A DNA stretch of 64,000 nt from Tribonema minus (Eukaryota > Sar > Xanthophyceae > Tribonematales > Tribonemataceae). Position numbers and translations under genes: made by a program. The stretch lies in the NCBI GenBank assembly GCA_017506865.1, contig JAFCMP010000526.1:558001-622000 (forward strand). Direction: 5' to 3'. Positions within the stretch are counted from its first letter, which is position 1. Every line of letters starts with the position of its first letter. Shown here piece by piece: positions 1 to 61,511 of the stretch. Under the pieces are notes generated by a model. The model was not told the origin of the DNA and made no database searches. It saw nothing but the letters and a program-made list of their open reading frames with translations.

Positions 1-3000
1 TCGACGCCGTCGATCTCAATTGAACCCGCGCACGGCTCAACAATGCGGAAAAGTGCTGTCATGAGACTCGATTTGCCGGAGCCGGTGCGACCGGCGATGC
101 CGATCTTCTCGCCGCCGCGAACTTCAAAGGTGACGTTGTTGAGGACGAGGTCCAGGTCGGGGCGGTACCTGAGAGGGGTGGGGGGGGGGGGGGGGAGTGG
201 GCGGTGCAACATTGTTTGCGGTGAGCAGCGGTTGCCTTAGTGAGGTCTTTGTTGCAGGCGATAGGGTTAACAGCAAACGCAATGTGGTGCATGAAGAGTG
301 CATGAATACTTTGAAGCTAGTCCGGATCGCGCAGTCTACCATTGAACTGCCTCTGCTTCACAGGAGAAAAAGTCAGACTTTGAACTGGCAACTACATGCA
401 TGCAAAGCATACTCGCACCCATTGAGCCATGCTCGAGAGCAACAGTTAAATCCAACCCTGCAACCTTGAAATGTTCAGGAGAGGCGCATCAGATGCCAGC
501 GAGGGGTACTCGGTGACATCACCAGAGCAGCAGCATCGCTCATCCCTGATGCAACTGGCGTTCATTCATGACTAAGCACGCGAATCCCGCGGCCATATAC
601 TTGGAGACATTACCTAACCAATAAATAGCGTTACGTGTGCCTGAGCAGAACGCGGCATTGCACGACTAAGCACGCGGGTCTGTCATTTCAATCAAACAAC
701 GACGCCTCACCTGAGGCTCACGCCGCGGAACGTGATGGCCCCCTTGGCAGGCCACCCCTCAGGGGGGCGGTAGTCGGCGTTGATGGGGGGGGCCTCGGGG
801 GTCAGCGACCCGTACTCGGTGACGCGCTCTGCAGAGGTGATGCGCGCCTCTGTCTCGCAGCCCATGCGGACGACCATGTTGAGCGTGCCGGTGACCTGGA
901 AGGGGGGACGGGGGGGGGGGGGGGGTTATTGGTGAGCAGGGAGAGTGTGTGTGTGTGTGAGTGACAGGGGCAAAAGATGGGGTGGCGAGGGTTTTGGTGG
1001 GGATCCTGGGAGAGCGAAGCGCGCAGCGGAAATAGTGTGAAGCTTGCTCTGAGGTGTATGGGGGGTCAGGTCACTTGACCCGCCCGAGTTCACACATTGA
1101 AGTTGAAGCAGGTGAACTAGCTGAACAGGCGCTGTGCGCATGAGCACGCTGTGCTATGGTGGCGTGTGACGTGCCGCTGGTGAGGATCGTTCCTCAGCAC
1201 GACAATCAGGTGAGGGTTGGGGCTCCGCATGCGTCAGCTGGTGACGATCCTTACTGCACACCACTGTCGACGTATCTATGCATGTTGCGACCCTACTGAC
1301 AGTAGCATCGGACGCTACTTGGCAAGGCCAAAGTTACAGTCAGACTTGAGGTCAGGACGCTCCACACTCACCTGCTGCGTGTACGTGAGGATGAGCCCCG
1401 CTGTTCCGGCGGTGAGGCCGATGACCGCGTTATCGCGGCCAATGGCGATGAGCATCGCTGCAGTGAAGATGGTGAAGTTGCCGAGAAGTTCCAGCCACGC
1501 CTGCAGCCAGCGGTTACATGCCTGCGGGGAGAGTGCACATGCAAGATGGGGTAGTGTGAGGGCATCTGCAGTAGGGTCAGGTGCATAACTCTGTGAGATG
1601 GTGAAAAACAAAGGAGCAAAACCATATTGTTCTACATTGCTGAGATGGGCATGTGAGAGGACAGCTGCAAGCCCAGCTGCGCGCGGAAGCGCGACCCTAG
1701 GGTGAGGATTGGCACAGAGGCGCCTGCTGCTGCGCCGTGGATGCGAGGACGCCCATCAGGAGGCAAGTAAACACGTGCCGCCAACGCTCACCCAAAACTC
1801 CCCCTGAGGCACAACGCGTCATGGTATTGCTACACAGCACCATCACCGCCCGTGTTCATACCTGCAGGTGGTAGTACGCGCCGTCGCACTGGTTGAGACG
1901 CTACAGATTGGTGGGGTAGGTATGTACCAGCCACAACGCTCAGCACCCAACAATGAACAACGACACCTCACTTCAAAGCGCGGCCGCGCCGCCCGTGGCC
2001 AACCCTAGCCCTAACCCTGAGCTCACCTGGAGGTGGCAGAACGTGCAGACTTCAACGCACGACCGCCACCCCTGTTACACCTAACTCTGAGCGCACCTGA
2101 AGGGGGTAGTCCGCAGGGTCGAGGCGCGCCGCGTTGCTAGGGTACGCATGTACCAGCCACAACGCTCATCAACCCACAACATGATCTAAGCGCACCTGGA
2201 GGTGGTAGCATGCGCGATTCGACTCGTCGAGCCGCGCCGCGTTGGTGCGTAGGAACGCCTCCTGCCGGCCGTACGCGCGCAGCGTCTGCCTACCCCAACC
2301 CTCATCCTAACCCAAACCCCAACCCTAAACCTAAGCGCACCTGAAGGTGGTAGTAGGCGCGATTTGACTGGTCCAGACGCGCCGCGTTGGTGCGCAGGAA
2401 CGCCTCCTGGCGGCCGTACGCGCGCAGCGTCGCGACGCCCGTGAGCGTCTCGCTGAACTGCGCAAAGATGGGCGAGCGACTGAGGGACTCCAGCCGCTGC
2501 AGGTCGCGGCTGACGGGGCGGTAGTACTTCTGCACGTGGTAGTAGGTGAACTGCAAGATAAGGGGGGGAGGGGGGGGGGGGTGTCAGGTGGTGATGAATT
2601 GGAAGATACTGTTTGACTCGTGGCCAATTGCTGCAGCAGCGGCGACCACGGTTATTGGTGGAAGGCACTTGCAGCTAACAATCCCTTGTCACCTAGAGCT
2701 CTACGATCTTTTGATTCGTTTTCATAAGGAAGGGGGGGGGGGGGGGATCAAGGTTAGGAGCATTGCTGGCTGATGGAACAAGGCAAGCGGAGGTACTTTT
2801 GGCTGTGGCATTAAATGAACTGCAAGAGGGGGGGAGGATGGGGGAGGGTTCAGCTGACGGGCAAGCAGAGGTCTTCTGGATGTGAACAAGGAATGAGAGG
2901 TCACCTGTACAGAGTACTTCTACGCGTTGTAGTAGGCAAATCACAATGGAAGTGTGGGGTCCATCACAGCTCTTGATGCGGTTTGCACGACAGCCGAGAC

Positions 3001-6000
3001 TTCTTCAAACACAGAAACGCAATACACTGTGATATCAGCGAACACGTGGTTGCAAACACATTGCCGTAATGCGCGGCGGTATCGCCAATAATCACTCACC
3101 ACGAGCTGCGCGACAAAGAGCGCAAGTTGGCATGTACAAGTACAAGAAACCCTTGTACATACATACCCTTGCTCACATCTGCTTCACCCAGAGAGCTGCA
3201 CGGAAAATCCGACACTGCAACAACGAACACGCCGCGATGTGACCCTGGCACTGGCAAAAAAGCCCTGGCTACGTTCGCGCTACGACGCACTGCTGCTCAA
3301 ACATTGACTCACCAGGAGGGGCGCGACGAAGAGCGCGAACCAGGGCAGCACGGCGATGATGGTCGCAAAGACGCCGATCAGCGTCGACAGCGTCATGATG
3401 AAGAGCGGCACGTTGCGCGGCAGCAGCAGGTCGATCGCGTCCATGTCCTTGGAGAAGCGATTGAGGATGCGGCCCACAGGCGTGGTGTCGAAGAAGACCA
3501 TCGGCGCGCGCATGATGCCGCCCACGAGCTTGCCGTGCAGCACGCGCGACGCGCGCACCGCCTGGATCGCGATCGAGATGCCGCGCACAAAGTACAGCGC
3601 GACGACCAGCACCACGAGCGCTATGTACACGGACTGGTACAGCACGTCGACCGTGCCGCCGCGCGCGTCAATGTAGGCATTCGTCCACACGCTGAGCCAG
3701 TACTCGAACACGGACGTCGCGCCCTGCGTCGCCAGCGTCACCACCACGAGCCAGATGGGCAGCGCCCAGCCGCCGCTGCCGTCGCGGAAGTACGTGCGGT
3801 ACACGCGCCAGTTCACCGCGCCCGCCTCCTTGCCCTCGTCCTCTATGAGCTTGATGCCAATGTCGGCGCGCGCGGCCGCCGCCGCCGCGGCCGCGTCCTT
3901 GCCCCCCTCCTTGTGCGAGGGGGAGCGCGGGCGGTCGCGAAGGGACCCTGAGCGTGCGCGCACGCGCTGAGACTCGCTGCGGTCGCGCGAGGCCCTGCGC
4001 TGCGCTGCCTCCTCTGTTGTAACGGCTTTTTCGGCGACCGTTTCGTTGGCGGGGCGCGCGCTGCGGGGGGGGGGGGGGGGGGGGGGGGGAAGGCAGGGTC
4101 AGAAGGGAGGGGGGGGGCACCGAATGCTGATCGTTGCTGCAGGTTATATCCTCGCCATTCACATCATCGCTGTCTCCAGCACGAGCCCCAAAGCGTTCCC
4201 ATTCTGGTTCGCATGCAGACGTCACTGCCAAACTTCAACTCTGAAACTTCAAAAGAAGCTCCCTGTCTGACAACTTCCTCTGCCTCCCCATCAATGTCGT
4301 CGCTATCTATCGCGCCCCCGTCTAACGTGTCCATCTAACTTCCAGCTGTCATTATGACTTCAACTCTACCTGAAAATCACTCTCAACTTCAACATTACCT
4401 TACAAACGCCTCCTCCTCCTCCTCCTCCTCGTCGCTGTCCCCCGCGCCCGCGCCGAACGTCTCCATCAGCGCCGCGAGCTCACCCCCCGGCACCTTCACC
4501 AGCTCCGCATACGGCCCGGCCTCCGCGATCCCCCCCCCCCTCACCACCATGACCCTGTCGCAGTCGGCCAGGAATTGGAGCTGGTTCGCGCACAGGAGGC
4601 GCGTCTTCCCGCGCAGCTCGCCCTTGATGCAGCGCTCGAAGATGTGGCGCGCGACGTGCGCGTCCACGGCGCTCAGCGGGTCGTCGAAGACGTAGACGTC
4701 GGCATCCGCGTACGCCGCGCGCGCGAGCGAGACGCGCTGCTTCTGCCCGCCGCTCAGGTTGATGCCCTTCTCGCCGATCTCCGTGCGGTCGCCTGCAGGG
4801 AGCATGGCAAAGTCCTGTCGCGCGCGCAGCGGAACGCAAAAGGGTACTGGGGTGAGATCACACAAAGAAATGAGTCATGGCATTGGGCCTTAGGGATCAA
4901 CTTTAATGGCAGTTAACTGCAATGCAACTTCAACAGGTTGGTGCCCTTCTCGCCGATCTCCGTGCGATCACGCGAGCAGCATGGCAAAGTCCTGTCGCGC
5001 ACGCAGTGTTGAGTAGGGGACTCACTAGGGTGAGATCACACACAGGAATGAGTCATGGCATTGGGCCTTCGGGATCAACTTCAACGGCAGTCAAGTGCAA
5101 TGGAACTTCAACAAGTTGATGCCTTTCTCGCCGATCTCCGTGCGGTCGCCCGCGGGGAGCATGGCAAAGTCCTGGCGATGCGAAGCGCGCGCGGCGGAGG
5201 GACACACTAGGGCGAGAGCACGCAAGGGACTGAGTCATGTCAACTTCAATGACAGCTGAGGGCAATCAGGAGTGGTAGGCGCAATGGTCCACGAGTCAGC
5301 ACGGCCGAGTCCTGGCGAGGCGAAGCGCGGGGCGGGGCGGGATGGAGCAGAGCAAGACATGAGTTGAATGAGACGCGCGGCAGAGTGAGCCGTTGCAGCG
5401 GCGTTTGAGGCGGAGCTCGGGGCATCATAATGGCGGGCGCAATGGACTGCGAGTCAATAGCAGCCTAACCCTAACCCTAACCCCAACCCCACCCGCACCC
5501 TAACCCTACCAGCTTACGGCGCTAACCCTAGCTTGGGGTTGGGTGATGGACTGCAACGCTCTGCGTGACGCGCGCTGATGAAAAGCGCACCCAAGCACCT
5601 GAGCACAGGTGCTGCCGTGCACGCGCGCGCCGCACGCACCTGCTGCAGCGCTGGCAGTGCGGACGACATCCTCTGTCCGAAGCTCCTGAAAAGGTTCATA
5701 ACGTAATGGCTGAGCGCTGACGCACCTGCTGCAGCGCGCAGACCTCGACGACACGGTCGTAGCGCGCCGCGTCGAAGGGCAGCCCCATGAGCACGTTCTC
5801 GCGCAGCGTCGCGTTGACGATCCACGCCGTCTGCGCGACGTAGGCCACGCTGCCGTCCACAGTAACGCGCCCGCGCACGCGCGTCATCTCGCCGAGCACT
5901 GCCGCGACAAGGCTGCTCTTGCCGCTGCCGACCTGGCCCACCACGGCCACCAGCTCCCCGGGTCCGACCTATAGCGGTTTGGGCAGCAGTTGGAGAACAA

Positions 6001-9000
6001 GGAAAGTCAGCAACGTCGACCGCCGCATCACGAGGTCCAACTCGCACAAGCCTCCGATAGTCCCACCTACAGGGTGCAGCCACACCTCAGTCCTCAGATG
6101 AAACACGGTCACTGTTGCATGCAACTTCAAAGACAAAACAGACCAGCACCACAGGACAAGCCACCACGCACCTCAAAGTTCAGCCGCGACTCAAACGGCA
6201 CCACGGGCGCCACCGCCACGACCTCCTGCTCCATCTCCCCTTCTCCAGTTTTGCCATCTGTAACTGCCGCCGCGCCGGGGGCCCCCTTCTTCTTCCCCCC
6301 TCCGCGCAACCACCCCCCCTTCCTCTGCCCCTCTTGCTTCTTCCCTTCTGCTGGCTTGGCGGTGGCATCAGGCATGCCGCTGGCGCGCTTTTTGTCAGCG
6401 GCTTCGTCGGTGTCTGCCGTCCACGAGAAGACGCCGTCGGAGACGGAGATGGTGCCCCTGCCCTTGCCCGTCCCCTGCCTGGGGTATGCAGGGTATGGGA
6501 TTAGGATTAGGATTGGGGTGACAATTAGGGTTAGGAATGGGGCGCGGAGACTGAACATGTGACGCACCAGTTGTATGAAGACTTGAAGGTAAACCCAGTA
6601 CATTGGGCAATGCTGTGGACAAGCCTGGGCAGTGCTGCACCTGTCTGGGCGCCGCGCTGCTGCGCGTAACTGCGGACACACTTTTCTTCCAAAACAATAG
6701 GGGCTGTCGTGTAAAGACCTCAGCTTGAATATTGCATCCATGGAGCGATTGCGTCCATGCATGCAGCGCTCATACCTGCCCCCCTCCCTCTACAGCAGAT
6801 ACCAGCACAGCAGCCAGCAACTCTCGCCGAGCGGCACTGCTGACCATGACGCTATCACGGAGAGAGGCGCAGCAGCAGGCAACTCTGCACTGGATAACTT
6901 CAACTTCAAGAAGGAATGTGAAACTTGAACTTGAAGAACGAATTCACCTGTGCGTCCATGCGCGACCCTCCTCGTCCAGCTCCTCAAGCTCGATGAAGCG
7001 TTGCAACCGACCCAGGCTGATCTTTGCCTGGATGTAGTTGGCGATTGTCATGGGCTGCATTCGGGAGGGAGGAGGAGGGATTGTGTCAGTTCTGCATGTG
7101 AGCTCCCATGCTCTGAGAGAGGGCAGTTCAGCTGTAATGAAGTTTTCAAACTCGGCAGTGCTCAGACGGCAACCGTTCAGCTTTGATAGGGTTTTCCAGC
7201 TCAGTTTTTCATTGGTGCCATGACAGAACACACACAGGACCAGGTGCAGAATGGTGATGCAGAAGTACAAGGTGGTGTACACATGCTTACTGCCAACAGC
7301 TAGCACTTCATGTTCAGATACCGTCATCTCAGCAAAAAACGACTGAACTCATTGCGATGCCACACCTGCTGCTGCACAGTGTTGACATGAAGCAGGATGA
7401 CTGAGAAGCTCGCGATTCAACCGGTTGAGATACGACACAAAAGCTTGCATCTAACTCTCACCGTAACCCTACCACTAACACTAGTTGTAACCAGTGCGGA
7501 TAGAGACTTCCTTCACCCAAACACTCCCCTGCAGCTCTTGCTAATTCTCACACAATTCCCACTGCATGCCGTAGAGACTTTTCAACGGCAGCAAAACGAG
7601 ACCGCTCGCAAGCATTCTTGCAAGCATTCGCATCCAATGCTGACCCATTCTGTCACAGGCTGTGCACTCATATTCCGGTGGTAGTGACCTGAATAGCCAT
7701 CGACAACAACAACAAACCCACGCATTGACAACACGTCATTGCACTTCAACTTAAACCTGGGGGACTCACCAGCATGATGAGCGGGAACCTGATGACGAGC
7801 AGCAGCGAAACCGCCGTGAACACGGTGGCGGGGTTGAAGTCGCCGCCCTGCGAAAAGAACACGGTGACCGTAATGGCTGCGGCAGCACGCATCGCAGCAA
7901 TGACAAGGGGGTTGCTCAGCTCAGCAAAGACGAGGATAGGCCATGTAGCAAACAGTGAATTTGAGCGCTGCTGCAGGGTGATGATGATGCCAGAGCTCAG
8001 CCTATAAGCACTCTGTTCATGCCGGCTGCCAACTTCAGCCCAGCGAATACACTCAAGGTTGTGGTGGCATTCACCGCACAGGACGAACGGCGTCGCGGCG
8101 AGCAGCACGAGCGAGTACGCGCTCGCGAAGGCGAAGCGCTTGGTGCTCTGCAGCTCGACCCCGCACAGCACGTCGCTGCAACTTCAAGCACTCACTACTT
8201 CAAGCGGCGGCACTCACCGCACATGACGAACGGCGTCGCGACGAGCAGCACGAGCGAGTACGCGCTTGCGAATGCGAAGCGCTTGATGCTCTGCAGCTCC
8301 ACCTCGCGCAGCGCGGTGAGCCTCTCCGCAAAGGGCGCCTCCCACGCGTAGTACTTGACAATCTTGATGCCCTGCAGGACCTCGTTGACCAGGCGCAGGC
8401 GCGCGTCGGTGCGCTTCATCTGGCCGCGCTGCACGCCCATCTGGTGGATGGCGATGGTGGCCTGGAGCGATTTGGGGGGTAGCAGGGGTGGGTGGGTGGG
8501 GGGGTCAAGCTCAGCTATTACGCATGTGCTCTGTCCATGGTCACATAATGCCATGTCAGTTTGGTCAACGTACACGTCCAAGTGACGGGCGCCGCACGCT
8601 TTCATTCTCATCTTAGTTGCTTGTCCTGCGCACATGCTCCTACGCACGGGACCACGAGAAGCAGTAGACCAGTGAGATACACCACCAGTTTTTTTTTCAA
8701 ACAGTTGCATGTAAGATACATTTGCTGCCCACCTGCAGCGGAATCATGACCACGTGGAACTGTGAGGGCTGCCACGCCCACCATTTCAGTTACATTTCAG
8801 TTACACATTACGTCCGCTGCGCACCTGCAGCGGCATCATGATGACGAGAAACGCCAGTCCGGCGAGAGCTGCCACGCCCACCAATACAGGTATGTTTCAG
8901 TCACCACTTTCAGCTACGCACCTGCAGCGGCATCATGACAACGAGAAACGCCAGCCCCGCGAGCGCCGCCACGCCCATCATTCACATATCAGTTGCATTA

Positions 9001-11774
9001 ATTACGTTTCAGTTACCATTTCAGTTGTACATTGCAATTTCACGAGTACACTGCGCACCTGCAGTGGCATCATGACGACGAGGAACGCGAGTCCGGCGAG
9101 CGCTGCCACGCCCACGAGGTTCACCAGCAGGTACACGGTGACGGCGACGATGAGCGGCGAGGTCCAGATGTTGTGCACAGAGAAGGCGACGTCGGGCAGG
9201 CGCTGCGCGTCGTTGGACATGAGCGTCACGCACTCGCCCGTGGACGTCGTCTGGCGCGCGCGGTTCGACAGGTTCAGCGACTGCAACAGAGGGGAGCATG
9301 AACAGAGAGAGTGAATGGGGCACATGCAGTTATTGAATCGGACGTTGTGACAATGGGCTTTTTTGGCATTGTGATGAACACAGGCATCCAACTGTCGTTG
9401 GACATGAGCGTCACGCACTCGCCCGTGATATCATCTGGCGCGCGTGGGTCAATATTGAGGTTGAGCAACCGCAACAGGGGTGGGGTGGGAGGGCGGGCAC
9501 AGGTCAGAGACGCACCCGGTCAGAGCGGCGAAGCGAACCGCCGGGCATGTGCTCAGTGCCCAGGAGTTGACAGGGTGAGTGAAAGTAGCAAAGTGCGAAG
9601 CCGTCAAAGCGAGACTTCAAAGGTCCGCCTGAAACAGGTGTCCAGGATGATTGGAGAGTCACATAGGATGGCTGACCGCACTTCAAGAGCATGTAAGCTG
9701 CGGCAGTGGGAATTGCGCGCCAGCATCAGGCGGAGCAAAAGACGTGAATGACCCTCATGAAGGCTGGCGCACACCACACATGGAGCTGTCGACGTAGGGT
9801 CAGACTAACCCTAACCCCAACCTGATCCTAATTCTAAAAGGCACAGGCAGGCAGGGAGCGCCCCGCGAAGATGCCATCACACACGCAAACCACCCGAGTC
9901 ATCAGCCGACATCACGCGCACTCGCGCAAAAGCCACCAACATGAAAACGAATCACATGGACCGTAGGACTCCAGGTGACAAGGTGTGGTTAGCCGTCAAT
10001 TTGAATGCCTTCCACCAATAACCGCAGTCGCCACCAACATACTCGCGCACTGAGTAGCGCAGCGGCCACCGGCGTATCTTTCTGTAGATGAGCGCGTTGA
10101 CGGTCATGTGCGCGGGCTTCGGACTAATCCTTATCCCAACCCTGACCGTAACCCTAAGATGCGCAGGCAGGCAGGCAGCCCCCCCCCCCCCCCCTGCGCG
10201 AAGCCCATCACACACGAACCACCAGCGTGTCCAGGCGATGTAACTGTATAGTTGCGTGGGGGCATCGGCGCGCACCTTCCTGTAGATGAGCGCGTTGACC
10301 GTCGTGCGCGCGTCCATCCCCATGTTGTACAGCTTCATGTACAGGTGGTTGGCGATGATGCCGTTGCCCACGCAGCCCACGCAGAACAGGATCGCCGCGA
10401 GCATGTAGCCGCGGCCCACCGGCTGCGTCGGGTCCTGGTACCACTGCAGCAGCTGCTGCACGAGGAGCGGTATGACGAGCGTCGCCGCCTGCTGCACGAG
10501 GGCCATCACGCCCGTGACGAAGAGCTGCATGCGGAACATGCGCATCAGCGCGCGCGCGAGGCTGCTCTGGCCCTGCAGGTGGCGAGCGTCACATTGGAGT
10601 TGAAGTTGAATTAGCAGCGGTATGACGAGCGTTGCTGCCTGCTGCACGAGGGCCATCACGCCCATGATGAAGAGCTGCATGCGGAACATGCGCATTGGCG
10701 CGCGCGCGAGGCTGCTCTGGCCCTGCGGGTGGAGGGCGCGCGCGGCCTCAAGTTAAAGTTGAAGGCGGGGGTGAGAAAAGACCAGGCTGGTTCATGCCGG
10801 TCCATGAGAGATTCATGCTGCGCATGCAGCGGAATTGTGGTGGTGAGTAGGTGGTGAGTAGGTTTGGGAGTAGCACCAATGCGCGCGAGAGGCTGCTGTG
10901 GCCCTGTGGCGGAGGACACGGCGCCGAGTTGAACTTGAGGTTGTGAAAAGGAGAAGGCAGTTGATAGACAGAAGCTATAGACAGACGCACACACTGTCAG
11001 CTCAATGAGTTGCATATTCTGGGCTGTTCATGCTAGCTAGCATTGCATCGGACCACCGCGCTGCCAGCGCGCCCGCGGTCTTCAAACAACTTGGCGATCC
11101 GAGCACCCCCTCATGCCGCATAAACTAGAGCGCTGGTGACGTTCGCGCATGCTGACATCGCGGGCGTGCGCTTGCACTCCCTCCGACACGCCGCATCAAC
11201 CCATGCCGTCAGCGTCGATACGCACGACACCACGCACACACCTCGGGGCGCTCGCGCTCCTTGCGCCACGACGCGTCAAAGCGCGCCGTGAGCGCATTAA
11301 CACACACTTCATGCAACTTGGTCAATCTCAACACGCCCATCTCGACATTAACTTCAAACATGCGCCGCTAGAGTCACCAAGGCAGCTGCGCACGCGCGCA
11401 CGCACCTTGGGCCGCTCGCGCTCCTTGCGCCACGACGCGTCGAAGCGCGCCGTGAGCGCGTCCGCGCCGCCCGTCGCGGGCGGCGCCCACAGGTTGGACA
11501 GGCGCAGCGGCTGGTGCCCTGCGAGCGCGATGAGCGGGTTGATCCACCAGAAGAACAGCCGGCTCACGAGGCTCGCCTTCTGGTGGCCGGGGCCGGGGAC
11601 ACCGTCGTAGCGGTCGAGGCGCTGCTCCCAGTGCGCCTCGCGGCGCTTGGCCTTGTTGACGCGCAGCGAGGCGAGGCGCGCGGAGCCGAAGCGGCGCGAG
11701 CCGAGGCGCGTGGACGCGAAGGAGGGGCCCATGGAGGGCGGCGCGGTGGTGACGACGGCGCCGCTGAGGGGCAT
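1..11774 (-). CDS. ABCC/MRP-type full ABC transporter, 3' end off window
   Basis: ATP-driven exporter of the ABCC family, which moves organic anions and conjugates across a membrane. Fourteen exons read on the minus strand with consistent GT-AG sites and phases: 11774-11406, 10572-10276, 9280-9059, 8461-8218, 7876-7770, 7054-6948, 6478-6172, 5968-5726, 4814-4399, 4060-3313, 2550-2341, 1521-1372, 895-711 and 168-1, giving about 1,257 residues. Membrane domain 1 covers residues ~65-450. NBD1 has Walker [10 protein letters not shown] (~562), signature LSGGQKQR (~652) and Walker B VYVFDDP (~673). A linker with seven consecutive Glu follows. Membrane domain 2 covers ~800-1130, and NBD2 Walker [10 protein letters not shown] (~1228) lies just before the window edge. 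There is no extra N-terminal TMD0 bundle, so it resembles short MRPs. A C-run plus GGCAG acceptor at 11790 suggests a further upstream exon, so the ATG at 11774 is provisional. Substrate and membrane are unknown. Confidence 0.93.
1861..2300 (-). repeat. Four tandem echoes of the 3' end of ABCC exon 2550-2341
   Basis: The intron following exon 2550-2341 contains diverged copies of that exon's last 40-95 bases plus the donor site, at about 1861-1960, 2021-2060, 2091-2175 and 2196-2290. The nearest copy still encodes a near-identical peptide (ending YHLQ) and keeps a GT donor. Copies farther from the exon are more decayed. Confidence 0.8.
2281..2335 (-). repeat. Degenerate CCCTAA-type repeat in ABCC intron
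   Basis: A run of CCCAACCCTAA-like hexamers directly follows the donor of exon 2550-2341 on the minus strand. It resembles a degenerate interstitial telomere-type repeat. Confidence 0.5.
2900..2946 (-). repeat. Echo of the 5' end of ABCC exon 2550-2341
   Basis: About 45 bases resemble the start of the exon (the part encoding [10 protein letters not shown]). They lie inside the preceding intron, about 350 bases upstream of the real exon in transcript direction. Confidence 0.6.
4925..5330 (-). repeat. Echoes of the 5' end of ABCC exon 4814-4399
   Basis: Copies of the exon start (encoding [17 protein letters not shown]) with flanking intron lie at about 4930-5050, 5110-5230 and, more weakly, 5290-5330. 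Spacing is roughly 180 bases. They sit in the intron between exons 5968-5726 and 4814-4399. Confidence 0.75.
5465..5515 (-). repeat. Interstitial telomere-type repeat (CCCTAA)n
   Basis: Several perfect CCCTAA hexamers followed by degenerate units, in an ABCC intron. On the gene's sense strand this reads TTAGGG. Confidence 0.8.
8060..8175 (-). repeat. Echo of the 3' half of ABCC exon 8461-8218
   Basis: A diverged copy of the exon end, encoding a peptide close to [20 protein letters not shown]. It retains the exon-intron junction but is separated from the real exon by about 40 bases. Confidence 0.8.
8730..8985 (-). repeat. Three echoes of the 3' end of ABCC exon 9280-9059
   Basis: Copies lie at about 8733-8795, 8822-8885 and 8920-8985, with a period of 90-95 bases. 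Each has the exon end plus GT donor. Two still encode [11 protein letters not shown](V/I)MMPLQ almost unchanged. None has a clear acceptor upstream, so they are not obvious extra exons. Confidence 0.85.
9385..9460 (-). repeat. Echo of the 5' part of ABCC exon 9280-9059
   Basis: A copy of the region encoding [10 protein letters not shown], lying in the preceding intron about 190 bases from the original. Confidence 0.75.
10060..10125 (-). repeat. Echo of the 3' end of ABCC exon 10572-10276
   Basis: Resembles the exon end encoding TVNALIYRK. It lies in the following intron and is followed by degenerate CCCTAA units. Confidence 0.7.
10603..10738 (-). repeat. Echo of the 5' part of ABCC exon 10572-10276, with acceptor
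   Basis: Repeats the acceptor (CCCGCAG near 10738) and the first ~130 exon bases. The reading frame stays open through to the real exon, so it could act as an alternative acceptor. A shorter third copy lies at 10865-10910. Confidence 0.8.
11237..11300 (-). repeat. Echo of the 3' end of ABCC exon 11774-11406
   Basis: Copies about 60 bases of the exon end and its donor, roughly 175 bases into the following intron. Confidence 0.8.
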
Positions 11775-11789
11775 GGGGACGTCGTTGAG

Positions 11790-14611: not shown

Positions 14612-21615
<7,004 letters not shown>

Positions 21616-26519: not shown

Positions 26520-26645
26520 GCTGCGCTGCCGCCGCCGCCGCTGCTGCTGCCGCTGCCGCCGCTGCTGCTGGTGGTGCTGGCAAAGCTGCTGCCGCGGCGA
26601 TGCCGGGCGCGCAGTGCGCGCTGCCGCCAGCGCTGCTGCTGCGGT
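26520..26645. repeat. Imperfect GCC/GCT trinucleotide repeat
   Basis: Starts right after the stop codon of the four-helix protein gene. It is a GCN-rich low-complexity stretch, probably in the 3' UTR. Confidence 0.7.
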
Positions 26646-28584: not shown

Positions 28585-28630
28585 GGGGTGGGGGTGGGGG
28601 TGTATGTGGGGGTGGGGGGGGTGGGGGGGT

Positions 28631-28691
<61 letters not shown>

Positions 28692-28700
28692 GGGGGAGGG
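28585..28700. repeat. Giant G homopolymer tract with an uninterrupted run of 60
   Basis: Positions 28631-28690 are an unbroken run of 60 G. It is flanked on the left by GGGGGTGGGGG-type units and on the right by GGGGGAGGGGG. This is a strong G-quadruplex or triplex former. By analogy with C-runs before acceptors elsewhere here, it may mark a minus-strand intron, but no exon was recognised beside it. Confidence 0.9.
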
Positions 28701-31239: not shown

Positions 31240-31307
31240 TTCCCTGTGACGCTCCTCAATCAGTCGCACGACGGTGTCGATGAACCGCAGTCCCTTACTT
31301 CAACACC
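31240..31307 (-). repeat. Echo of the last exon of the alpha/beta hydrolase
   Basis: A ~66-base tandem copy of the stop-codon region (CACCCTATTCCCTGTGACGC and the following ~30 bases), lying just downstream of the gene. Confidence 0.85.
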
Positions 31308-38859: not shown

Positions 38860-39112
38860 TGCGTGTATGCCTTAAGGTGGTGGTGCTCACAGCACCCCTG
38901 GCCCCGCCGCCGTTCCTGCAATTCAGAACACAAAAATAACACTTCAACTCGTAGTTGAACATTTTCGCCTGTGAGAAAGGGGGTGAAAAGCCTATTCGTC
39001 ACTGCTGGACCAGTGCTGGTACAGGACCACAGAGGCTTCAGCAGTTCGTCTACATTGACAATCAGAAGGCAGCAGCCGCTCAAACCGCAGCAGCGAAGAG
39101 AATCCCAAAGCG
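38860..39112. promoter_or_regulatory. Compact bidirectional promoter region
   Basis: Only 253 bases separate the start codons of the hydrolase (minus) and EMC2 (plus), so both promoters and 5' UTRs must lie here. No TATA box is obvious. An inverted ACTTCAACT...AGTTGAA motif lies near 38941-38960. Confidence 0.6.
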
Positions 39113-45121: not shown

Positions 45122-48100
45122 ATGGCCCGCGACGATGGCGCCAGCATCAGCAAAAGGGAAAGAGATAGGGAACGGGATAGGGAGAGGGACCGGGGCGCTG
45201 GGCGAGACAAGAGCAGCAGGCATGAAAGATCCCGTAGCAGGGAGCGACGGAGGAAGCGAGCTCGCGGCAGTAGCCGCAGTCGCAGTCGAAGTCACAGTGC
45301 CGAACGGTCTAAGAGGGACAGGAGCGGCAGTAGGGAGCGGAGGCGCAAAACTTCAAGCCGCAGGCAAGAGGACGACAGCGACAAGCAAATACCTCCTCCA
45401 CCACCGCCGTTGCCTGAGCCGAAGCAGCCGAAAACTGTCAGAATAGACTACGGAGACGAGGACGAAGACGAGGAGGGCGAAATTCCACTGCAGCCCCCTC
45501 CGCCACCGCCTCTGCCGTCGTCCCCGTCTCGCTCCGACATGCAGCTGCGTGGTGACATGGCACCACCGCCACCACCACCAGCTGGCGGCGATGTGGTATA
45601 CGAGAAGATCAAGCCAGCCGTCAGCGAGTCCAATGGCGAGATCAGCATGTCCATCGAGGAGACCAACAGGGTGAGGGCCATGCTGGGCCTGAGGCCCCTG
45701 GCGGTAGGCAACTCCAAGGAGCAGCAGGCAGTGGACAACCTGCGCAGGAAGAAGGAGGAGGAGGCCAAGGTGCGCGAGCTCGCGGACATCGAGGCGCGCC
45801 TCGCCAAGGCGCGCAACCGCCGCCAGCTGCACGAGCGCCTCAAGGGCAGCACGCTGGGCGAGGTGCAGGCGGGCGAGGACGGCTCCGTGCTGAGCGCTGC
45901 GGACTGGGTCGGCAAGAGCCGCCAGCGCGCAGCCGAGGCGGAGGAGCAGCGGCTGCTCGCAGAGAAGCGTGCACGCCTCCTGGAGGAGCAGGAGCGCAGC
46001 GACGACGACAGCGACGGCGGTGGAAAAGGCCCCAGGTACACGGAGAAGGACCTCGCGGGGCTGCGCGTCGCGCACGGCGCCGACGCCTTTGACCTCGGCG
46101 ACAGCGCGATACTCACGCTCAAGGACGCGGAGGTGCTCGAGACGGACGACCACGGCGTCGTGCGCGGCCTCGCCGACGGCGAGGACGAGCTCGAGAACGT
46201 CGCCATGACGGAGGCGCAGCGCCGCGCGGACGCCGAGGCGCGCGCCAAGCGCGCCGCGCAGGGCGCGTACCGCGCGTACGACGACGAGGAGTTCGAGGCC
46301 GCCGGCCCCGGCGGCGCGCCGCCGCAGCGCAAGATCCTCTCGCAGTACGACGAGGAGCTGGAGAGGAACCGCAAGAAGAAGGCGGGGGGGATGGTGCTGG
46401 GCGAGGCAGCAGCGGCGGTGAAGCCGACGGCGGCGGAGGCGGAGGCGCGCGTTGCAGAGTCGCTGCACACGGCGGCGGCGCGCGCGGCCGCTGCCGACTA
46501 CTACACCGCGGAGGAGATGGCCACCTTCAAGAAGCCCAAGAAGCTGCGGCGGAAGAAGGCGGCGCCGCGGCGGCGCGCCGCGGACGAGGAGGAGGGCGAC
46601 GAGCGCAGCGGCACCACGGCGGTCGAGGCGGCGATGCTCGTCGACGGCAACGGCGCGAAAGCGAGCGCGGACCACGGCTCGCGTGCCGCACGCGCCGCCG
46701 CTGCCGCCGCCGCTGCCAACGGCGCCGCCGCGGAGAAGAAGGCGCGATTCGACGCCGCGCTCGCCAAGGCATCCGCGAAGGCGGCCGCCAAGCTGCAGGA
46801 CGAGACGCCGTTCATGCCGCCGCCGCCGCCGCCAGCAGCAGCAGCAGCGGAGCCCGAGGAGGAGGAGCTGGACGGCGACCTGGCGGCGTCGCTGGCGCGC
46901 GCGCGGCGACTCGCGCAGCTCAAGGAGCGCGCGCAGGCGCGGCACGAGTCCGCGGCGGAGGTCGCGGAGCGCATCGCGAAAGCGAAGGCCGCCGCCGCCG
47001 CCGCCGTGGCGGTCAAGTCGGAGGCGGGCGAGCAGAACGGCGGCGAGGCGGCGGCGGCAGCGGCGGCGGCGGCGGAGGCGGAGGGCATCGTGTTCACGCC
47101 GGCGACGGAGTTCACGAGCCGCATGCAGGCGGTGCTGCAGGAGCGCGTGCGCGAACGTGAGGCGGCGCTGCGCAAGGAGGCGGAGCGCGCGGCGCGCGAG
47201 CGCGGCGCCGGCCACGTAACTGTCAAGCACGACGCGAAGCGCGAGGAGGCGGCGGCGGCGGCGGCTAGCGGCGGCGCGTGGGAGGAGCAGGCGGAGGCGA
47301 TGGACGTGGAGGGGGAGGGGGAGGCGGGGGAGGGGGGGAGCGACGCGGAGGGGGATGATCAGGTACGTATGCTTGCAGTGTTGGGGAAGGGTAGGTATAG
47401 AAGCGCGACGCGAGGGGCGGCAGCGATGCGGAGGCGGACGCATCAGGTGTGCATGATTGGCAGTGTTGAGAAAGGGTATACTTGGTGGTTGATGGTATCA
47501 CAGAAGGGGTCGGCGACAGACATGCGGAAGCGGATGCTCGGGCATGACGTTGCTGAGAAGGGTATGCATAGCGTAGCATCACTGTGGAGCGTGCACCGGC
47601 CGCGTGGGCGTGCGTGCAACTTCAACTTCATGTCACGTCTTGAGGGGAGATCCCTGCGTGCTGCCCCCGCGCGCAGTGATTCGCATGAGGGTGGTGCATG
47701 CAACCTGCTGCATAGGCAGGCTTTGATAGTGTTCATGCACACTTGCACGTGCGTGCAAGTTGACGTCTATCCAATGTGGCATTGGGGGTCGGTCGCGCTG
47801 GTGTTTGATGCGGCTTTGTAAACTACACATGTTGCAGTCTGCAGTTCATCGCCTTAGCAACATCACATAACTGAAACGGTGATTGTGTGTGCTGAAGAAG
47901 AATGAACTGGTTGCGCTCATTGTACATGTGATAGGCACCGTACTGATGGACCGTCAGGTGCCGATTCACTGTGCATGGCCAGCTAGTTATGGCAAAGTTA
48001 AAAAGTAGCGCCGCTGTGCGTTTCTATAGCGTCGTGCAGACATGTGTGTACCTCTTCTTACGACCCACAGTGTGCACACGAGCAGCAGATTGTGCAACTG

Positions 48101-48968
48101 GGTGTGATACATCGCTCATGGCACGGCGAGGCATGCAGCTTCAGGAAAGCAGCCGGCAGCGCACGCTGGTGGCTTGAGAAAGTGAACATGGTTGCCCCAA
48201 TTCTGTCCGCGAGCGTATTGGCAGGGGCACACCCTCACATGCCCTTGCAACCACTGTTGACTTTCAGAGTACCTCAGTTTGTCGCAGCCACATGATGTCA
48301 TGCACATCCGCTGCCTGCTGGTCCAAACCCCCTCCCCCCCCCCCCCCACCCCCTCGCGCGCTCGCGCCGCTCCGCAGGCGGGCTTCATGCTGCGGCAGCC
48401 GCTCGTGCGCTCGAGCATGGCGGCGGCGCTCTCGCTGCTGCAGCAGAGCGGCGACCTCAAGCACAAGACGGAGCTCGCGGGGCGCGCCAAGGACAAGCGC
48501 GAGTTCGCCGGCGAGGCGCCCGACGACGACGGCAGCGGCGCCGGCGCCGTCAAGCTCGAGTACCGCGACGAGTTTGGGCGCCAGCTCACGCGCGCGGAGG
48601 CGTTCCGCCAGCTCAACTACCAGTTCCACGGCTACGGCCCCGGCAAGAAGAAGCAGGAGAAGCGCCTCAAGGCGCTGCAGGAGCAGCGCATGCGCGAGCG
48701 CGCCGCGGACGTGTCCACGATCAGCGCGCTGCGCAAGGTGCAGGAGGTGACGGCGCGCCCGTTCCTGGTCGTCAGCGGCGGCAGCGGCGGCGGCGGCAGC
48801 GGCGCGGCGTCCGTGCTGCCGGAGCGGCTGGACCTGAAGAAGGGCAGCAGCGGCGGCGGCGGCCGCGGCGGCGCCGCGAGTAGTAAGCCGAAAGCGGGCG
48901 GGGGAGGCGCCTCGATGGTGCCGGGGCAGCAGTCCGCGCAGCGGTCACGGCCGCCGCCGCCGACGTGA
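45122..48968 (+). CDS. SART1: SART1/Snu66, U4/U6.U5 tri-snRNP protein
   Basis: Splicing factor that joins U4/U6 with U5 in the tri-snRNP, nuclear. Two exons, 45122-47362 and 48378-48968, phase 0, about 943 residues. The N-terminus (~10-85) is an RE/RS-rich domain, followed by polyproline and an acidic patch. Next is the family hallmark IEETNRVRAMLGLRPL (~178), then a long charged helical region (~200-745) with ADWVGKSR and repeated Ala/Glu/Arg-rich coiled-coil segments. Exon 2 carries the conserved C-terminal part LEYRDEFGRQLTRAEAFRQL, FHGYGPGKKKQEKRLK and PFLVVSGGSG, as in animal and plant SART1. The Gly/Pro-rich tail is extra. The intron contains two echoes of the first donor. Confidence 0.95.
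47395..47575 (+). repeat. Echoes of the SART1 exon 1 donor
   Basis: The block GCGATGCGGAGGCGGACGCATCAG|GTGTGC near 47425-47460 and a weaker one near 47518-47565 copy the exon end, the donor and the following TTGGGGAAGGGTA-type intron start. Period is about 75-95 bases. Confidence 0.8.
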
Positions 48969-50118: not shown

Positions 50119-53100
50119 ATGTCCTCCATAGAGTTTCTCTGGGACAATATAGCGCAGCAGCTGCAGGGCTCGCCAGCTCGTGCACTCTGGAAGCAAAGTA
50201 CCGGCGCCAAGGCGTCAGCATGTCGCTTATGCAAAGACAATACCGCAGGCAAATGGCTTGTCCGCTGCAGCCGGACAGGCTGCAACATTTGGTTCCACGC
50301 CAGCTGCTGCGCCGCCAAAGTCGCCAATGTAAGGACCGCCGACTATCAATGCTCGTCGCCGGATCCATTGGTTGCCTCTGTCTGGGTTGCCGTAGCCTGT
50401 CAGCAAGCGGTGCTTAAATTTTCTACCATCTCGCTTGTCATGTCTCGGATGTACAGGACGCAGGCTGTGGCATGCGGGCGACTGCAGCAGGCGGTGAGGC
50501 GCAAGGCTACCCGACCATCTCGTTCCTGTGTCCTACGCACAACGAGAGCCCCCTCTATTGTTCCTGCCAGCAACCGGACAACGGCGACGAGCAGTACATT
50601 CAGTGCAGCGTCTGCGCGGAGTGGTGTCACTACAGCTGCGAGGGTGTTCCTGTCGATGAGCCGGCTCCGGAGGTAAGTCACCCAGTCGCTTTCATGCATC
50701 CATGTCATGTAGAACATATTGATGTTGCTGTTGATGTTTACACAGATGCTGCCAGCGATTTACAAAGGCCTCTTGGGAGGTCCGACCATGATCTTGGACG
50801 TGAGGAAGTCCCAACCAATATCACTTGATCCCTGTTTGCAATCACACAGGTCTACACCTGCAAGGCGTGCCAGAAGCGAGGCGGCAAGGCTCCCGCGGCG
50901 CTGCGCGAGCGCAACATTGCCAAATCGAAAATCTACGAAGTGGAGGTCGCGGCGCAGCACATGGTGAAAGCAGCGCAGTGGATTGCGAATGCGCAGGAGT
51001 TTGTGGCGCGCACACTAGCGGCGGCGGAGGCGGGCGAGGCGCGCGGCACCGGCGGCGAGCTGCGGCGCGCGGAGGAGCTGATGGAGCAGGGGGAGGCGTT
51101 CAAAATGGCAAAGGCGGGAGGCGAGGACGCAGCAGCGGAGGAGGATGCGGTGAGTGCCAATCTCACCTTTATTAAAGTCATTGGCACGCTTGCCACAGTC
51201 GCGTGCTGAAGTAGGGCTCGATGTCTCAGACCGAATGGTGTTGCAATGGCGCGGCGGTACGCGCTGCGGAGGGACGACTCGTGTCTCAGCTGACAGGTCA
51301 TCACAGGATGCGTCGTTGGCCTTTTGCTAGCTCAAATGCCGTATTGACATTCAATGGTTGAGGCCACTTGGAAAGAGAACAATCGCAAGGGTTTGTATGA
51401 CTGCAGCTGCTGCTGCACCCAGATGCTGTTTTGTCAACGTGCTCAGCCCTATTGACGACGCGCCACCGATTCAGGCTGGAAAGTGACAGCAACAGCGGCT
51501 TTGTGCGATCCGCGCAGCGCCGCTGCAGCCATTTAGTGGCACTGTAGTGCACTGACGCCATTGCAGGCGGCGCACGGCGCGCTGCCACCGACTGCCGACG
51601 CGATCAGCGACGAACGTGTCTGCTGGTGCGGCGCCGTGCTTCTCGCGCGATGGCGCTGCAGCACCAGCCCCAGTCATGCGTTCGGAGCGCTCTTGCAAAT
51701 CCATCTGTCCATCTGGTGTGCCAAGCCGAAGTGTAAAGCTGCCGCTTGCGTGGCTGAGCCGGCTATGCAGGGAGACGTGCATGCGGTGCGCGCCCAACCC
51801 CCCCCGGAACCTCTCCGCTGCTGTGAGTATCGTGCTGTTCCAGAGCGTTGCTGTTGAGCCGTGCCACTTACTGTTGAAGTTTGCCTCGTCCGCGCAGGAG
51901 GAAGAGCCGCCAGCGGTGGTGCCCCTGGGGATGCAGGCGCAGTTCAAGGCGCAGCTGGAGGAGCTGAGCGCGATCCTGCAGGGGACCACAGAGTGGCAGG
52001 AGCACCTTGAGGTAGGCGCAGTGCTCAGGCAGTCAGCAGTGCTCAGACATTTAGCAACTGCTCAGTCAGCAGTGCTCAGGCAATCAGCAGTGCTCAGTCA
52101 GTCAGGGGTGCTCAGTCAGTCAGCAGTGCTCAGGCAGTGCAGGCAGTGCTCAGTCAGTACAGCTGTGCTCAGGCAGTCTGCAGTGCTGAGTCGCTCAAAC
52201 AGGCTCTGTTGGCGATGCTCACTCAGTGCGCCCATCCACAGTCAGCAACTGTTCAGTCAGGCGGCAGCGCTCAATGGTCAGTGAGGGCAGCAGTGCTGAA
52301 ACAGTCTGCGCTGTGCGCAATCAGTCAAAGTGCTCCGTCAAGCAGCAATGCTCCGTTGCACAGCAGGTCTCAGTCATCATGCCATGCACTCAGTCAGCAG
52401 TTGCTCCGGTCGGCGCCTGTCCAGTCAGGCAGCAGCGCTGAATTGCTCTGGTAGTCATTCAGCAGTGCTCAGTCGGTTGGCGGACTGAGCATCTCTGCAG
52501 ATCTTGCCGTGCTCTCGGTCAAGCATGCAATGTGTTGCCGGGCTCAGACCCTGTGCCCCCTGTGAATGCTGGGTGTTGGACGCAAACGGAAGCTCTGGAG
52601 GGACACGGGCATGTCAACCTCAAGTGACTGAACCGCGCCACTGGTCAGGTTCGATGCCCCTGCTGCTGCGGTGGCTGCGCCACTGACGCCTGCGGCCTAG
52701 TTGCCATTGACTATTTCAACTAGAAGTACTACAGCCGACGGGCGGGTGGGTGCTGCCCCACCTACCATATGCACGCGTGTCAGTGTTCAGCTGCAACACA
52801 GTCACGCTCGCGTGAAGTCTCGTCGACCTTCAAATCACGGCAATCGCCGTGGTAGCAGCGCTCAACTCTGTGCTCGCTGCGCGTGCGCAGGCGTGGCAGA
52901 TGGACCATCAAGCGGCATTCTGGACGCAGGACAACTCGGGCGGTGGCGGCCAGTGGGCGATCACCGAGGAGGAGATGGCGAAGGAGGCGCAGGATGTGAG
53001 TCCCAATACCGTATGTATATGTGAGCGAGAGAGTCTCGAAGAGCGCTATGAACTCGCGCTCGTAAGCGCACTAGCGATCGCCGAGGAGGAGATGGCGAAG

Positions 53101-56100
53101 GAGGCGCAGGACGTGAGTTTTAATACCGCATGTATGTGGGAACAAACCAATGGGATCTCGAGGAGTGCTGTGCACTCCTGTTTGTAAACGCACAAGTACT
53201 GAAGTACACATGAGCACTGCACTTTGTTCCGCCATCGTTCTCGGGCCACACTCAGGGACGGCGGGAGCAGCAGAGCACTGTGCCTGCTACATTACACATG
53301 CTCTGTTGTCGTGCAAGTCATCAAACGCCAGGTGCAAGTGCGCGCGCGAGGAGGCCGTCTCCGCAGTGCTCAGCATCCGCTGATGCCGTGCGCGTGCACC
53401 ACGCACTCACGCCATTGCGCCACCGGCACCAACCATCCCTCCATTGAATGCAGCGGGCACTGGATGCACCTCCGTGTGCCTGCCGCACACCCTTTGCATG
53501 GTCCTCATCCACCACCGCCCCACCGCGCACGACAGTCATTCAAGTGCATTCTCACCATCGCTCCCCCCCCCCCCGCACACACACACATTGACCACCGCAC
53601 GCGACGGTCACTAAATGCATTGCCCCCCCCCCCCCCCCCCCCCCCCAGCTTGAAGAGATGCGCACGCAGGAGCGGCGGCTGCGGCTGCGGCCGCCCAACG
53701 CGCACTGGCTCGACGAGGCGCTGGAGGCGCTGGCGTGGACGCAGCGCGCGCACCAGCTCGTCTCCGCGCAGCCGCCGCTGCCGGTCGAGGCGCTCGCGCA
53801 GCACCTCGCGCTCGCGCAGCGCACCAAGGTGGCCAACGCATTCAACAACAGGTGAGCGCTGAGGGCGGGGGCGGTGTGGGTTTGAGCGTGCGCGACGTGA
53901 GAACAGAAGCTGTTGGCAGCGACTCGATGTGCACCTCGCGCTGGCGCAGCGCACCAAGGTCGCCAACGCCTTCAACAACAGGTGCGTGTCGCAGTGTGTG
54001 CGGCGAGGGCGGGGGCGGTGCGCGCGCATCGCCGCCGCGACGTAAGAAAAGAATTGATTGCAGGCACCTCGGTGGTCAAAGCAACTGTTTGGTGCGCAGC
54101 ACCTCGCGCTCGCGCAGCGCACCAAGGTGGCCAACGCCTTGAACAACAGGTGCGTTCGTGTGCGCTGAGGGTGCAGTGGGCGTGCGTGCCGCGAGGAGCT
54201 AGCTTCGTCGCCGGCAGCGCGGTTCCTTCGCGGCGGCGCTTGTTGCGGTTGCTGAGCGCGGCGGCAGCGCCATACGCTGACCATTGCATACAGTGGGCTT
54301 GGCATTGTGCTGCCCGTTTTTTGGGCGTCCGAACGTGAACGTTTCCTCAACCTGTGTCGCAACAGAGCGCTTTTCGACAACGCCTGACGAGGTGTGGCGA
54401 TGTATGCATGCACTGCAGCACAACCGCATGCAACACGCTACACAGCAGCATGGCCCTGAGACAGCATTATCAACCACAGCCAAAAGGACAGTTTGCCCCT
54501 GGATCAGCGCACGCGGCCGCATGCGCCGTTCCGGCAGAGGTCACCGACACCTCCCGTCAAGTTGAAGTTGTCACCTAACCCCCTGCCCCCCCCCCTCCCC
54601 AACAACCAGGGCATTTTTTGCGGTGGAGCGCGTGCAGTTCGTCATCCGCGCGGCGACCATCTGGCAGAAGCGCGCGCGCCAGATGCTCGGCCTGCTGGCG
54701 CCGGCGCGCAGCGCGGCCGCGACGATCCGCCTCGACCAGCTCAGGCAGCAGCTCACCAACGCGCCGGACGTGCCGGTGGCGCTGCCCGAGCACGAGGAGC
54801 TGCGCGCCGTCATACAGTTCTGGATGCAGTGGGAGGCAGAGGTGAGGGGCGGCGCGCTGATCTGCAGGTTGAAGTGTATGAACTTCAATTTCAACTTGAA
54901 GTTGCTACATACGTTTTGGCATGCGTTGGCATCGTCAGGAGCGAGCGAGTCTGGTCTTCCGACGGCGGTGCAGGCGAGCTTGTTGAACGTGTGTGGCTGC
55001 GTGCGCAGCTGGGAGCTGCCGCGCTGGAATATGCCTTGTGCGGCAGGTCTTGGACTCATTGCGTACTTGTCGTGGACTCCACTGAGCACTGACTGCACTC
55101 AGCATCCACGTGCGCCTTCGCAACAGGCGCTACGCCTTTGCTGCGTCGTCATGACAAAACTGCCGTGCTGGCCACGACGTGCGCTCCGCTGCCCGACGCC
55201 GGCGCCTTCTAGCACACCTCTCGCCACCCGCATCCACAGTCCTACGCGCACACCACCACCAGCTGCTGACGCTCACTCGCTTCACACCCCTTGCGCCGCC
55301 GCGCCGCCACCGCCGCTGCCGCCGCCGCCGGCAGGCCGACGCCGTGCTGCAGACGACCGCGGCGCGCGGCGGCGCGCTCAACGCGCCGCTCTCCGCGCTC
55401 GCGGACGCGGACGCCGGCGCGGCGCTCATGGCGCGCGTCGCGGCGCTCCTCGACAGCGCCGCCGCGCAGCCGCGCCAGGTGCGCTGCGCGCAACGCGAGA
55501 CGCTGTCACGCATGGAGGGCTGGCAGGCGTGGGCGCAGCGCGCCTCGGAGATGCTTTCACGCGCAGGCGGCGGCGGCGGCGACAATGGGCAGCTGGCGGC
55601 GGCGGCGCCGCGCCGCGCCGACTTTCAGGCGCTGTTGGGCGAGGGAGCGAAGCAGGTGCGTTTCAGGCGCCGAGCGCTGCGGCTGGTGCTGTTGAAGTTG
55701 TGCCATGCGGTAGCTGAAGTTGTGATGTGCGCGATGCGCGGGGGGGAGCTGTGGGGAGCGCTGCGACCTCGCCGGCGCGGGTGCTTCCTCTGCGGAGCAC
55801 TGCCACCGCTTGTCTGCAGCATCAGCGCAACGTGCCGACACAGCCATCCACGTCGGTACGCTCGCGTCATTCCACAACACCACGAACTGTGCACCCCCCC
55901 CCCCCCCCCCCCCTCCCGTATGCAACATAGTCTATGCAACTCACCACTCGCGTGCCACCGCACCCTCCCCTCATCCGCAACCGCCACGTCCCCCCCCCGC
56001 AGGGCCTGAGCACCGACTCCGAGGACCCCCTCATGCGGCGCGTGCGAGAAGCCGCCAACGGCGGACCCGCTGCTGCGCGCGCGCGCGCGCTCCTCGCGCC

Positions 56101-61478: not shown

Positions 61479-61511
<33 letters not shown>

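Follow-up and report, generated by a model that had tools for sequence, protein, structure and literature searches.

How does an intron come to hold one or more degenerate copies of the end of its neighbouring exon? The question is raised by a 64,000-nt stretch of DNA from the xanthophycean Tribonema minus (assembly GCA_017506865.1, contig JAFCMP010000526.1, positions 558,001 to 622,000 of the forward strand; hereafter the window, with positions counted from its first letter). The original prediction, made from the letters of this stretch, was that segments spanning exon-intron junctions are repeated in tandem inside the adjoining introns. The window is eukaryotic nuclear DNA with a GC content of 49-77% (2-kb steps), and the genes recognised in it encode an ABC-C type transporter, FtsH, an alpha/beta-hydrolase-like protein, EMC2, RPL9, SART1 and a PHD/PLU-1 (KDM5-like) protein. 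For the six split genes that we modelled, exons were placed from three-frame translations on the basis of GT-AG sites, frame continuity and protein motifs as they occur in relatives. This resulted in 35 introns with a total length of 22,034 bp and a median of 614 bp. The gene models are predicted ones, and all 35 introns are of the GT-AG type, a criterion that was built into the choice of sites.

Copies of exon edges are present in the adjoining introns

Four tests were used to compare the exon edges with the intron sequences. In the first one, the 60-nt edge of an exon was compared with its own intron and with 200 pieces of equal length taken from other introns. The smallest possible p value (1/201) was obtained for 22 of the 70 edges, where about 0.35 is expected. 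In the second test, 150-nt exon edges were aligned and a Smith-Waterman score of at least 30 was counted as a copy. This revealed 29 copies at 20 of the 70 junctions, distributed over 16 of the 35 introns; by this test copies are absent in the other 19. The same threshold was reached in only 10 of 1400 trials with other introns and for 1 of 70 edges on the reverse strand of the own intron, and thus within the window the similarity of exon edges to their own introns is above that to other introns, as the original prediction demands. The two tests agree at 18 junctions, with four found by the first test alone and two by the second alone. One of the 29 copies, and with it one of the 20 junctions, is doubtful: the acceptor-side copy in intron PHD.6 has a period of 682 bp, lies 94 nt off the junction and is probably a chance match.

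In the third test, exon edges were compared with the intron on the wrong side of the exon, which gave no match in 58 cases, against 15 of 58 for the right-side intron of the same exons. The fourth test is free of annotation: we searched the window for repeat pairs at most 500 bp apart with a score of at least 36, and did the same with five dinucleotide shuffles. The window contains 49 direct pairs and no inverted pair, and the shuffles yielded 0 or 1. The direct pairs fall into 29 that link an exon edge with an intron, 10 that are intron-only, 9 in unannotated DNA (29 kb, partly genic), six of which come from the array at 25.4 kb, and a single exon-exon pair. The latter, which is located in SART1 and is weak (score 36), is the only repeat pair within coding sequence. 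The intronless EMC2 gene had been singled out as free of such copies, and indeed no local repeat pair is present there.

Together, these results confirm that the copies of exon edges in the adjoining introns are real. All 13 examples that had been listed hold, 12 of them as exon copies in the second test. The remaining one (25440-25880) holds through a gene that we could only sketch; a query spanning its putative junction reached a score of 52 (highest control, 22), and the exon tail alone one of 25 (highest control, 22). For the SART1 donor-side copy, the exon part alone scores 36, lower than the reverse-strand control (41), but the result of the junction-spanning query is clear (63 against 25).

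Structure and spacing of the copies

Donor-side copies are located downstream of the exon and acceptor-side copies upstream of it. The former are present in 13 of the 35 introns and the latter in seven, with four introns containing both; the difference between the two sides is not significant (p = 0.19). Local duplication across junctions is upheld for either strand and for the donor as well as the acceptor side. The spacing between successive copies has a median of 150 bp and is between 84 and 198 bp for 26 of the 29 copies. The copies are 77-97% identical to the exon across 20-110 exon bases, and in 21 of the 29 the match extends to within 2 nt of the splice junction, as it must for a contiguous unit. 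Most of them (25 of 29) lie in the half of the intron next to their own junction. Among the copies that reach the junction, the splice dinucleotide is retained as GT in 14 of 16 and as AG in five of five cases, and the donor motif from -3 to +6 contains 22 mismatches in 144 positions (16 donor copies).

The predicted drop of similarity with distance from the exon is seen in four of the seven multi-copy arrays, but not in the others. Introns with copies are longer than those without (mean 754 versus 525 bp; one-sided p = 0.0026), in line with the claim that duplication lengthens introns, but a longer intron is also a bigger target, which gives the same pattern.

We also analyzed whether the intron flank is repeated together with the exon part. 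These flank analyses (strict, lenient and by simulation), and the codon-position test described below, used the nearest copy per junction, i.e., 19 of the 29 copies. The PHD.6 acceptor copy with its period of 682 bp was left out of all of them, and matches more than 14 nt off the junction were left out of the flank, simulation and random-placement analyses. With lenient scoring, homology in the copied intron flank was detected for 14 of the 19 units (12 of 19 under a previous control to which the own intron also belonged); with strict scoring, eight of the 19 matches continue into the intron for over 30 nt. Judged from these alignments, the majority of the 19 look like tandem units composed of exon plus intron flank.

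Probable tandem duplication across splice junctions

The explanation that we consider probable is that tandem duplications of about 80-200 bp recurrently span exon-intron junctions, are masked by splicing at the original site and are nearly neutral, and that they probably derive from DNA repair. The copies, their direct orientation and spacing, the inclusion of the junction and the residual intron homology in most units are seen directly, and from there we infer the splice-site choice, the neutrality and the repair mechanism. At a donor, the exon tail plus intron head would be repeated downstream; at an acceptor, the intron tail plus exon head would be repeated upstream. If the spliceosome stays with the site of the original exon (the first of the donors or the last of the acceptors), mRNA and protein would remain unchanged, the extra copy would turn into intron, the intron would grow and the duplication would be close to neutral. 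Duplications located fully within coding exons would alter the protein and be purged by selection. A junction copy would decay next to a real exon that selection preserves, and this would make such copies more visible than intron-only ones; duplications internal to an intron would be harmless too, but both of their copies would decay, making them harder to detect.

The duplications are likely to come from staggered nicks or breaks that underwent error-prone repair. TTAGGG-like arrays are present in the copy-bearing introns ABC.2, ABC.8 and ABC.11 (15 matches versus 0 in shuffles), and in mammals telomere-like arrays are described, in the parts of two papers that we consulted, as being inserted during break repair (PMC7215372; PMC2246262). 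The telomere-like inserts are suggestive in that they fit break repair, without proving it. For rice, the consulted part of PMC7407515 reports insertions of 10-1000 bp that are tandem, partly tandem or copied from at most 200 bp off the break, and it cites Vaughn and Bennetzen (2014) for ascribing them to asymmetric nicks. The sizes and direct orientation of the copies in the window fit duplications of this nick or end-joining type.

Partly degenerate arrays of the TTAGGG type were seen at positions 2292-2334, 5464-5508, 9805-9838, 24379-24414 and 61889-61941. They are located in introns and unannotated DNA, and none is present in a labelled exon.

Several observations weigh against this explanation. 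TTAGGG-like arrays, in the opposite orientation, also occur in introns ABC.6 and ABH.1, which are free of copies by the second test. Strict alignability is lost within 16 nt of the junction in 11 of the 19 units, and a simulation run at the copies' own 6% change per copy yields none of 19 such early losses; it nears the observed loss only at about 20% change per copy plus 4% indels (mean 7.4, maximum 13). Ungapped, the mismatch at donor positions +7 to +16 is 80/160, against 146/1486 in the exon parts. Finally, five of the 19 units lack intron homology even by lenient scoring, and plain tandem duplication may not be the cause of these five.

The copied intron flank thus decays much faster than the copied exon part, which is unexpected. 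Possible causes are slippage in repeat-rich intron starts, conversion of the copies by the exon close by, weak constraint acting on the copies and breakpoints that truly lie at the junction. Strict extension pointed to homology that ends sharply at the splice site, but this reading was rejected: lenient alignment regained homology in six of the 11 shortened units, and we therefore report fast decay rather than a sharp breakpoint.

Decay of the flanks is also uneven in intron 5 of the hydrolase gene. Here, two later intron-flank copies (33711-33914) are 90% alike over 40 nt, whereas the flank of the real donor has no detectable homology to that of the first copy.

The placement of the duplications weighs in the same direction. 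Units of the observed sizes (18 founders, period of at most 260 bp only) were placed at random in the modelled genes, and fractions of 0.51, 0.26 and 0.18 were intron-only, junction-spanning and exon-only, respectively. Under uniform placement, intron-only events are thus expected to outnumber junction events by 1.96 to 1. Given the 18 junction founders and a detectability between 0.21 and 0.74, this amounts to 7.4 to 26 independent intron-only events; about two were counted, which looks too few (P for two or fewer = 0.02 to 2e-9). The count of about two is a judgement, in which eight of the 10 intron-only pairs are assigned to junction arrays, and with four events and the lowest detectability P becomes 0.14. 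The evidence leans towards an enrichment of duplications at junctions.

The strongest alternative is a process that targets junctions and is tied to transcription or splicing, for instance through nicks at RNA-DNA hybrids close to splice sites. Such a process would account for the shortage of intron-only events and for the 11 of the 19 units in which strict homology ends no more than 16 nt from the splice site. However, it is uncertain how detectable two copies are when both decay freely, the event count rests on the judgement just mentioned, and lenient alignment restores intron homology in six of the 11 shortened units; we regard this alternative as doubtful. Its broader form, in which exon-intron borders are duplication hotspots, with copying coupled to transcription or splicing, introns growing outward from their ends and a stratified record left in each gene, likewise strikes us as unlikely. 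If junctions were truly targeted, this would point to a mutational process linked to splicing or transcription.

Do the copies serve as spare exon ends or splice sites?

Another explanation is that the copies are functional, having been selected as alternative exon ends, decoys or recursive splice sites. The retention of GT and AG in the copies, reported above, agrees with the claim that duplication creates spare splice sites, and conservation is higher in the copied exon parts than in the copied intron parts. Yet neutral decay of near 6% per site would leave a similar number of intact dinucleotides.

The codon-position test gave 15, 28 and 59 mismatches at positions 1, 2 and 3, over 361, 361 and 363 sites (19 pairs); the raw numbers over all 29 copies are 25, 36 and 85. 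A neutral copy combined with synonymous drift of the exon predicts between 46 and 54 mismatches at position 3. The observed 59 exceeds the lower bound (p = 0.035) but is ordinary at the upper one (p = 0.26). Coding constraint is disfavoured because changes at position 2 exceed those at position 1. In the seven multi-copy arrays, changes specific to a copy number 10, 8 and 21 by codon position, which would speak for constraint, although they may include exon changes that occurred between duplications.

Nor does the spacing follow the reading frame, being a multiple of three in 11 of 29 cases. The acceptor-side copy of ABC exon 2 with period 150 and the donor-side copy of PHD exon 5 with period 117 would allow in-frame read-through if used, and several others run into stops or frameshifts when inspected by eye. 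Many copies had been said to encode nearly the same peptide as the exon. By eye this is correct, but recency can account for it. The raw numbers and the copy-specific changes looked suggestive. Once the data were reduced to one copy per junction and base and CpG strata and synonymous exon drift were taken into account, the signal became borderline, and coding constraint on the copies is not established. Altogether, we give the selection of spare sites little chance of being the cause of the arrays.

Other explanations

According to the model of Rogers, introns are born when an exonic segment containing AG|GT is duplicated, and the original prediction had suggested that the arrays might be a trace of this. 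AG|GT is indeed present at many copied junctions, and as in that model duplication sets AG|GT at a new spot. Unlike here, however, intron birth by this route predicts that the intron start resembles the downstream exon and the intron end the upstream exon. No wrong-side match was found (0/58), and 25 of the 29 copies are located near their own junction. On this geometry we rejected the proposed link to intron birth, which appears highly improbable.

The insertion of introners or other mobile elements is less credible still. A short interspersed element is present three times in the window, but distant pairs in a self-blastn of the window are few (this element, telomere-like arrays and some short GC-rich pairs), and the exon edges match other introns in just 10 of 1400 trials. 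Introners were rejected, as an intron family of shared sequence was not seen in the window self-blastn or among the 35 introns. Simple assembly artefacts or annotation errors are equally hard to believe because the copies differ by 3-23% from the exon (77-97% identity) and nine of the 29 alignments are gapped; moreover, the 35 modelled introns are bounded by GT and AG between open reading frames, with sites chosen with that in mind.

The interspersed element is about 100 bp long and is located at 2617-2725 (-), 32300-32413 (+) and 9941-10032 (+), the latter two being 78-84% alike to the first. One ABC intron carries it in the sense and another in the antisense orientation. An 18-base pattern derived from it matched one viral and 19 genome stretches in non-eukaryotic collections. 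These matches look like chance, since only two of the 20 gave a blastn hit to the element (E 1e-3), over just 20 and 21 bases. Among viral contigs, no relatives were found with EMC2 (no pattern match) or with one ABC exon (five stretches, none confirmed).

Short words also recur between introns. The 9-mer GTTGAAGTT is present nine times in introns, where shuffles give 0.03, and no labelled exon contains it; TTGAAGTTG, which overlaps it, has eight occurrences in introns and a single one in exons. These sites are located in introns ABC.6, ABC.8, ABC.9, FtsH.6, PHD.3 and PHD.6.

Comparison with known duplications

The closest case that we found is the potato RdRp gene, in which, according to the consulted passages of Ma, Lan and Niu (2016, PMC4974935), an intron-exon boundary was duplicated in tandem and exon sequence was thereby made into intron. 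As described there, the intron tail and exon head were doubled in tandem and part of the exon copy became intronic, as in the window, where the splice signals are likewise mostly inherited from the parent junction. In contrast to that account of one event in one gene that generated a new intron with a cryptic donor, 16 of the 35 introns are affected here, on both sides and some with several copies, and it seems to be existing introns that lengthen. Passages citing Gao and Lynch (2009), including those in PMC4974935, call internal gene duplication common. The frequent doubling of segments within genes is a shared feature; unlike here, the duplications as cited can take in whole introns, and many of the gains are imprecise. 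The rice duplications resemble the copies in being tandem or partly tandem, 10-1000 bp in size, or non-tandem and copied from a site no more than 200 bp off a break; in the passages of PMC7407515 that we used, they are presented as general insertions and not as arrays at exon junctions.

The type of event is therefore already known, and its density is the surprising part, based on a single 64-kb window. A comparable density of junction copies was not found described for any genome in those parts of the open-licence literature that we consulted. Intron growth and the origin of new splice sites are usually deduced from single old events. With copies of differing age at about half of the introns of the window, the rate, breakpoints, decay and splice-site competition would be measurable in one organism. 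The copies are also a warning for annotation, as gene predictors may take copied exon ends for real exons.

Genes and other features of the window

The copies and the gene models are listed in Table 1. In the ABC-C gene, eight of the 12 introns contain at least one exon-edge copy. An exon may be hidden inside intron 3 of the PHD gene.

Table 1. Exon-edge copies and genes in the window; numbers in brackets after an exon give the position of its edge, and fractions give identical over aligned positions.
Feature	Coordinates	Strand	Details
ABC exon 1 end (11406), donor-side copy	11242..11295	-	51/54 identical, period 164
ABC exon 2 start (10572), acceptor-side copy	10613..10722	-	103/110, period 150; second copy 10873-10903 (26/31)
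ABC exon 2 end (10276), donor-side copy	10078..10114	-	33/37; copied donor GT now AT
ABC exon 3 start (9280), acceptor-side copy	9394..9450	-	52/57; match starts 14 nt into exon
ABC exon 3 end (9059), three donor-side copies	8733..8977	-	88-91%, periods 137, 234, 326
ABC exon 4 end (8218), donor-side copy	8075..8172	-	89/98
ABC exon 9 start (4814), two acceptor-side copies	4934..5171	-	52/58, 56/60; unit of ~178 bp including part of the intron
ABC exon 9 end (4399), weaker donor-side copy	4276..4335	-	44/57; stops 12 nt before junction
ABC exon 11 start (2550), weak acceptor-side copy	2913..2936	-	21/24, period 390; another at 2787-2856 (blastn)
ABC exon 11 end (2341), donor-side copies	1862..2286	-	2196-2286 (82/91), 2117-2136 (18/20), 1862-1901 (31/40); blastn: 2080-2110
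FtsH exon 3 end (16046), donor-side copy	16199..16238	+	37/40; blastn repeats from 16130, also 16280-16321
FtsH exon 8 end (19493), donor-side copy	19586..19669	+	70/83
FtsH exon 9 start (20126), two acceptor-side copies	19893..20023	+	25/26, 25/30
Repeat array after putative donor 25461 (sketched gene)		+	6 local repeat pairs, unit ~84 bp
Hydrolase-gene exon 5 end (34108), donor-side copy	33923..34015	-	85/92
Hydrolase-gene exon 2 end (36911), donor-side copy	36727..36759	-	31/33; ~104 nt of intron copied along
RPL9 exon 3 start (41705), two acceptor-side copies	41772..41931	-	45/47, 33/37
SART1 exon 1 end (47362), donor-side copy	47412..47446	+	29/33
PHD exon 5 end (52995), donor-side copy	53074..53111	+	37/38; ~73 nt of intron copied along
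PHD exon 6 end (53851), two donor-side copies	53931..54149	+	48/51, 54/56
ABC-C type transporter gene	895..11774	-	13 exons placed (last: start only); Pfam ABC_membrane/ABC_tran on exon open reading frames
FtsH gene	14612..21012	+	AAA and peptidase M41 domains; exons 1-10 placed (last: start only)
Membrane-protein-like gene, sketched	24023..25916	+	putative donor after 25461; no Pfam family for two open reading frames
Alpha/beta-hydrolase-like gene	33041..38847	-	6 exons modelled; Pfam match on one exon, under curated cut-off
EMC2 reading frame	39059..40051	+	intronless; 0 local repeat pairs
RPL9 (uL6) gene	41531..43581	-	3 exons modelled
SART1 gene	45083..48968	+	2 exons
PHD/PLU-1 (KDM5-like) gene	50119..54841	+	7 exons modelled

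The leader peptides of FtsH and of the hydrolase-gene product resemble the bipartite plastid-targeting peptides of those algae whose plastids are secondary red ones. No tRNA gene was detected in the window by ARAGORN, and no Rfam family was found at gathering thresholds.

The region from 55300 to 63000 is very GC-rich (up to 77%, 2-kb steps) and holds the rest of the PHD gene past its modelled part. No local repeat pair (direct pairs at most 500 bp apart, score of at least 36) starts between 55.3 and 63 kb, and the duplication process looks uneven along the window. Within intron 4 of the PHD gene, positions 52018-52187 are occupied by an array of an 18-bp unit.

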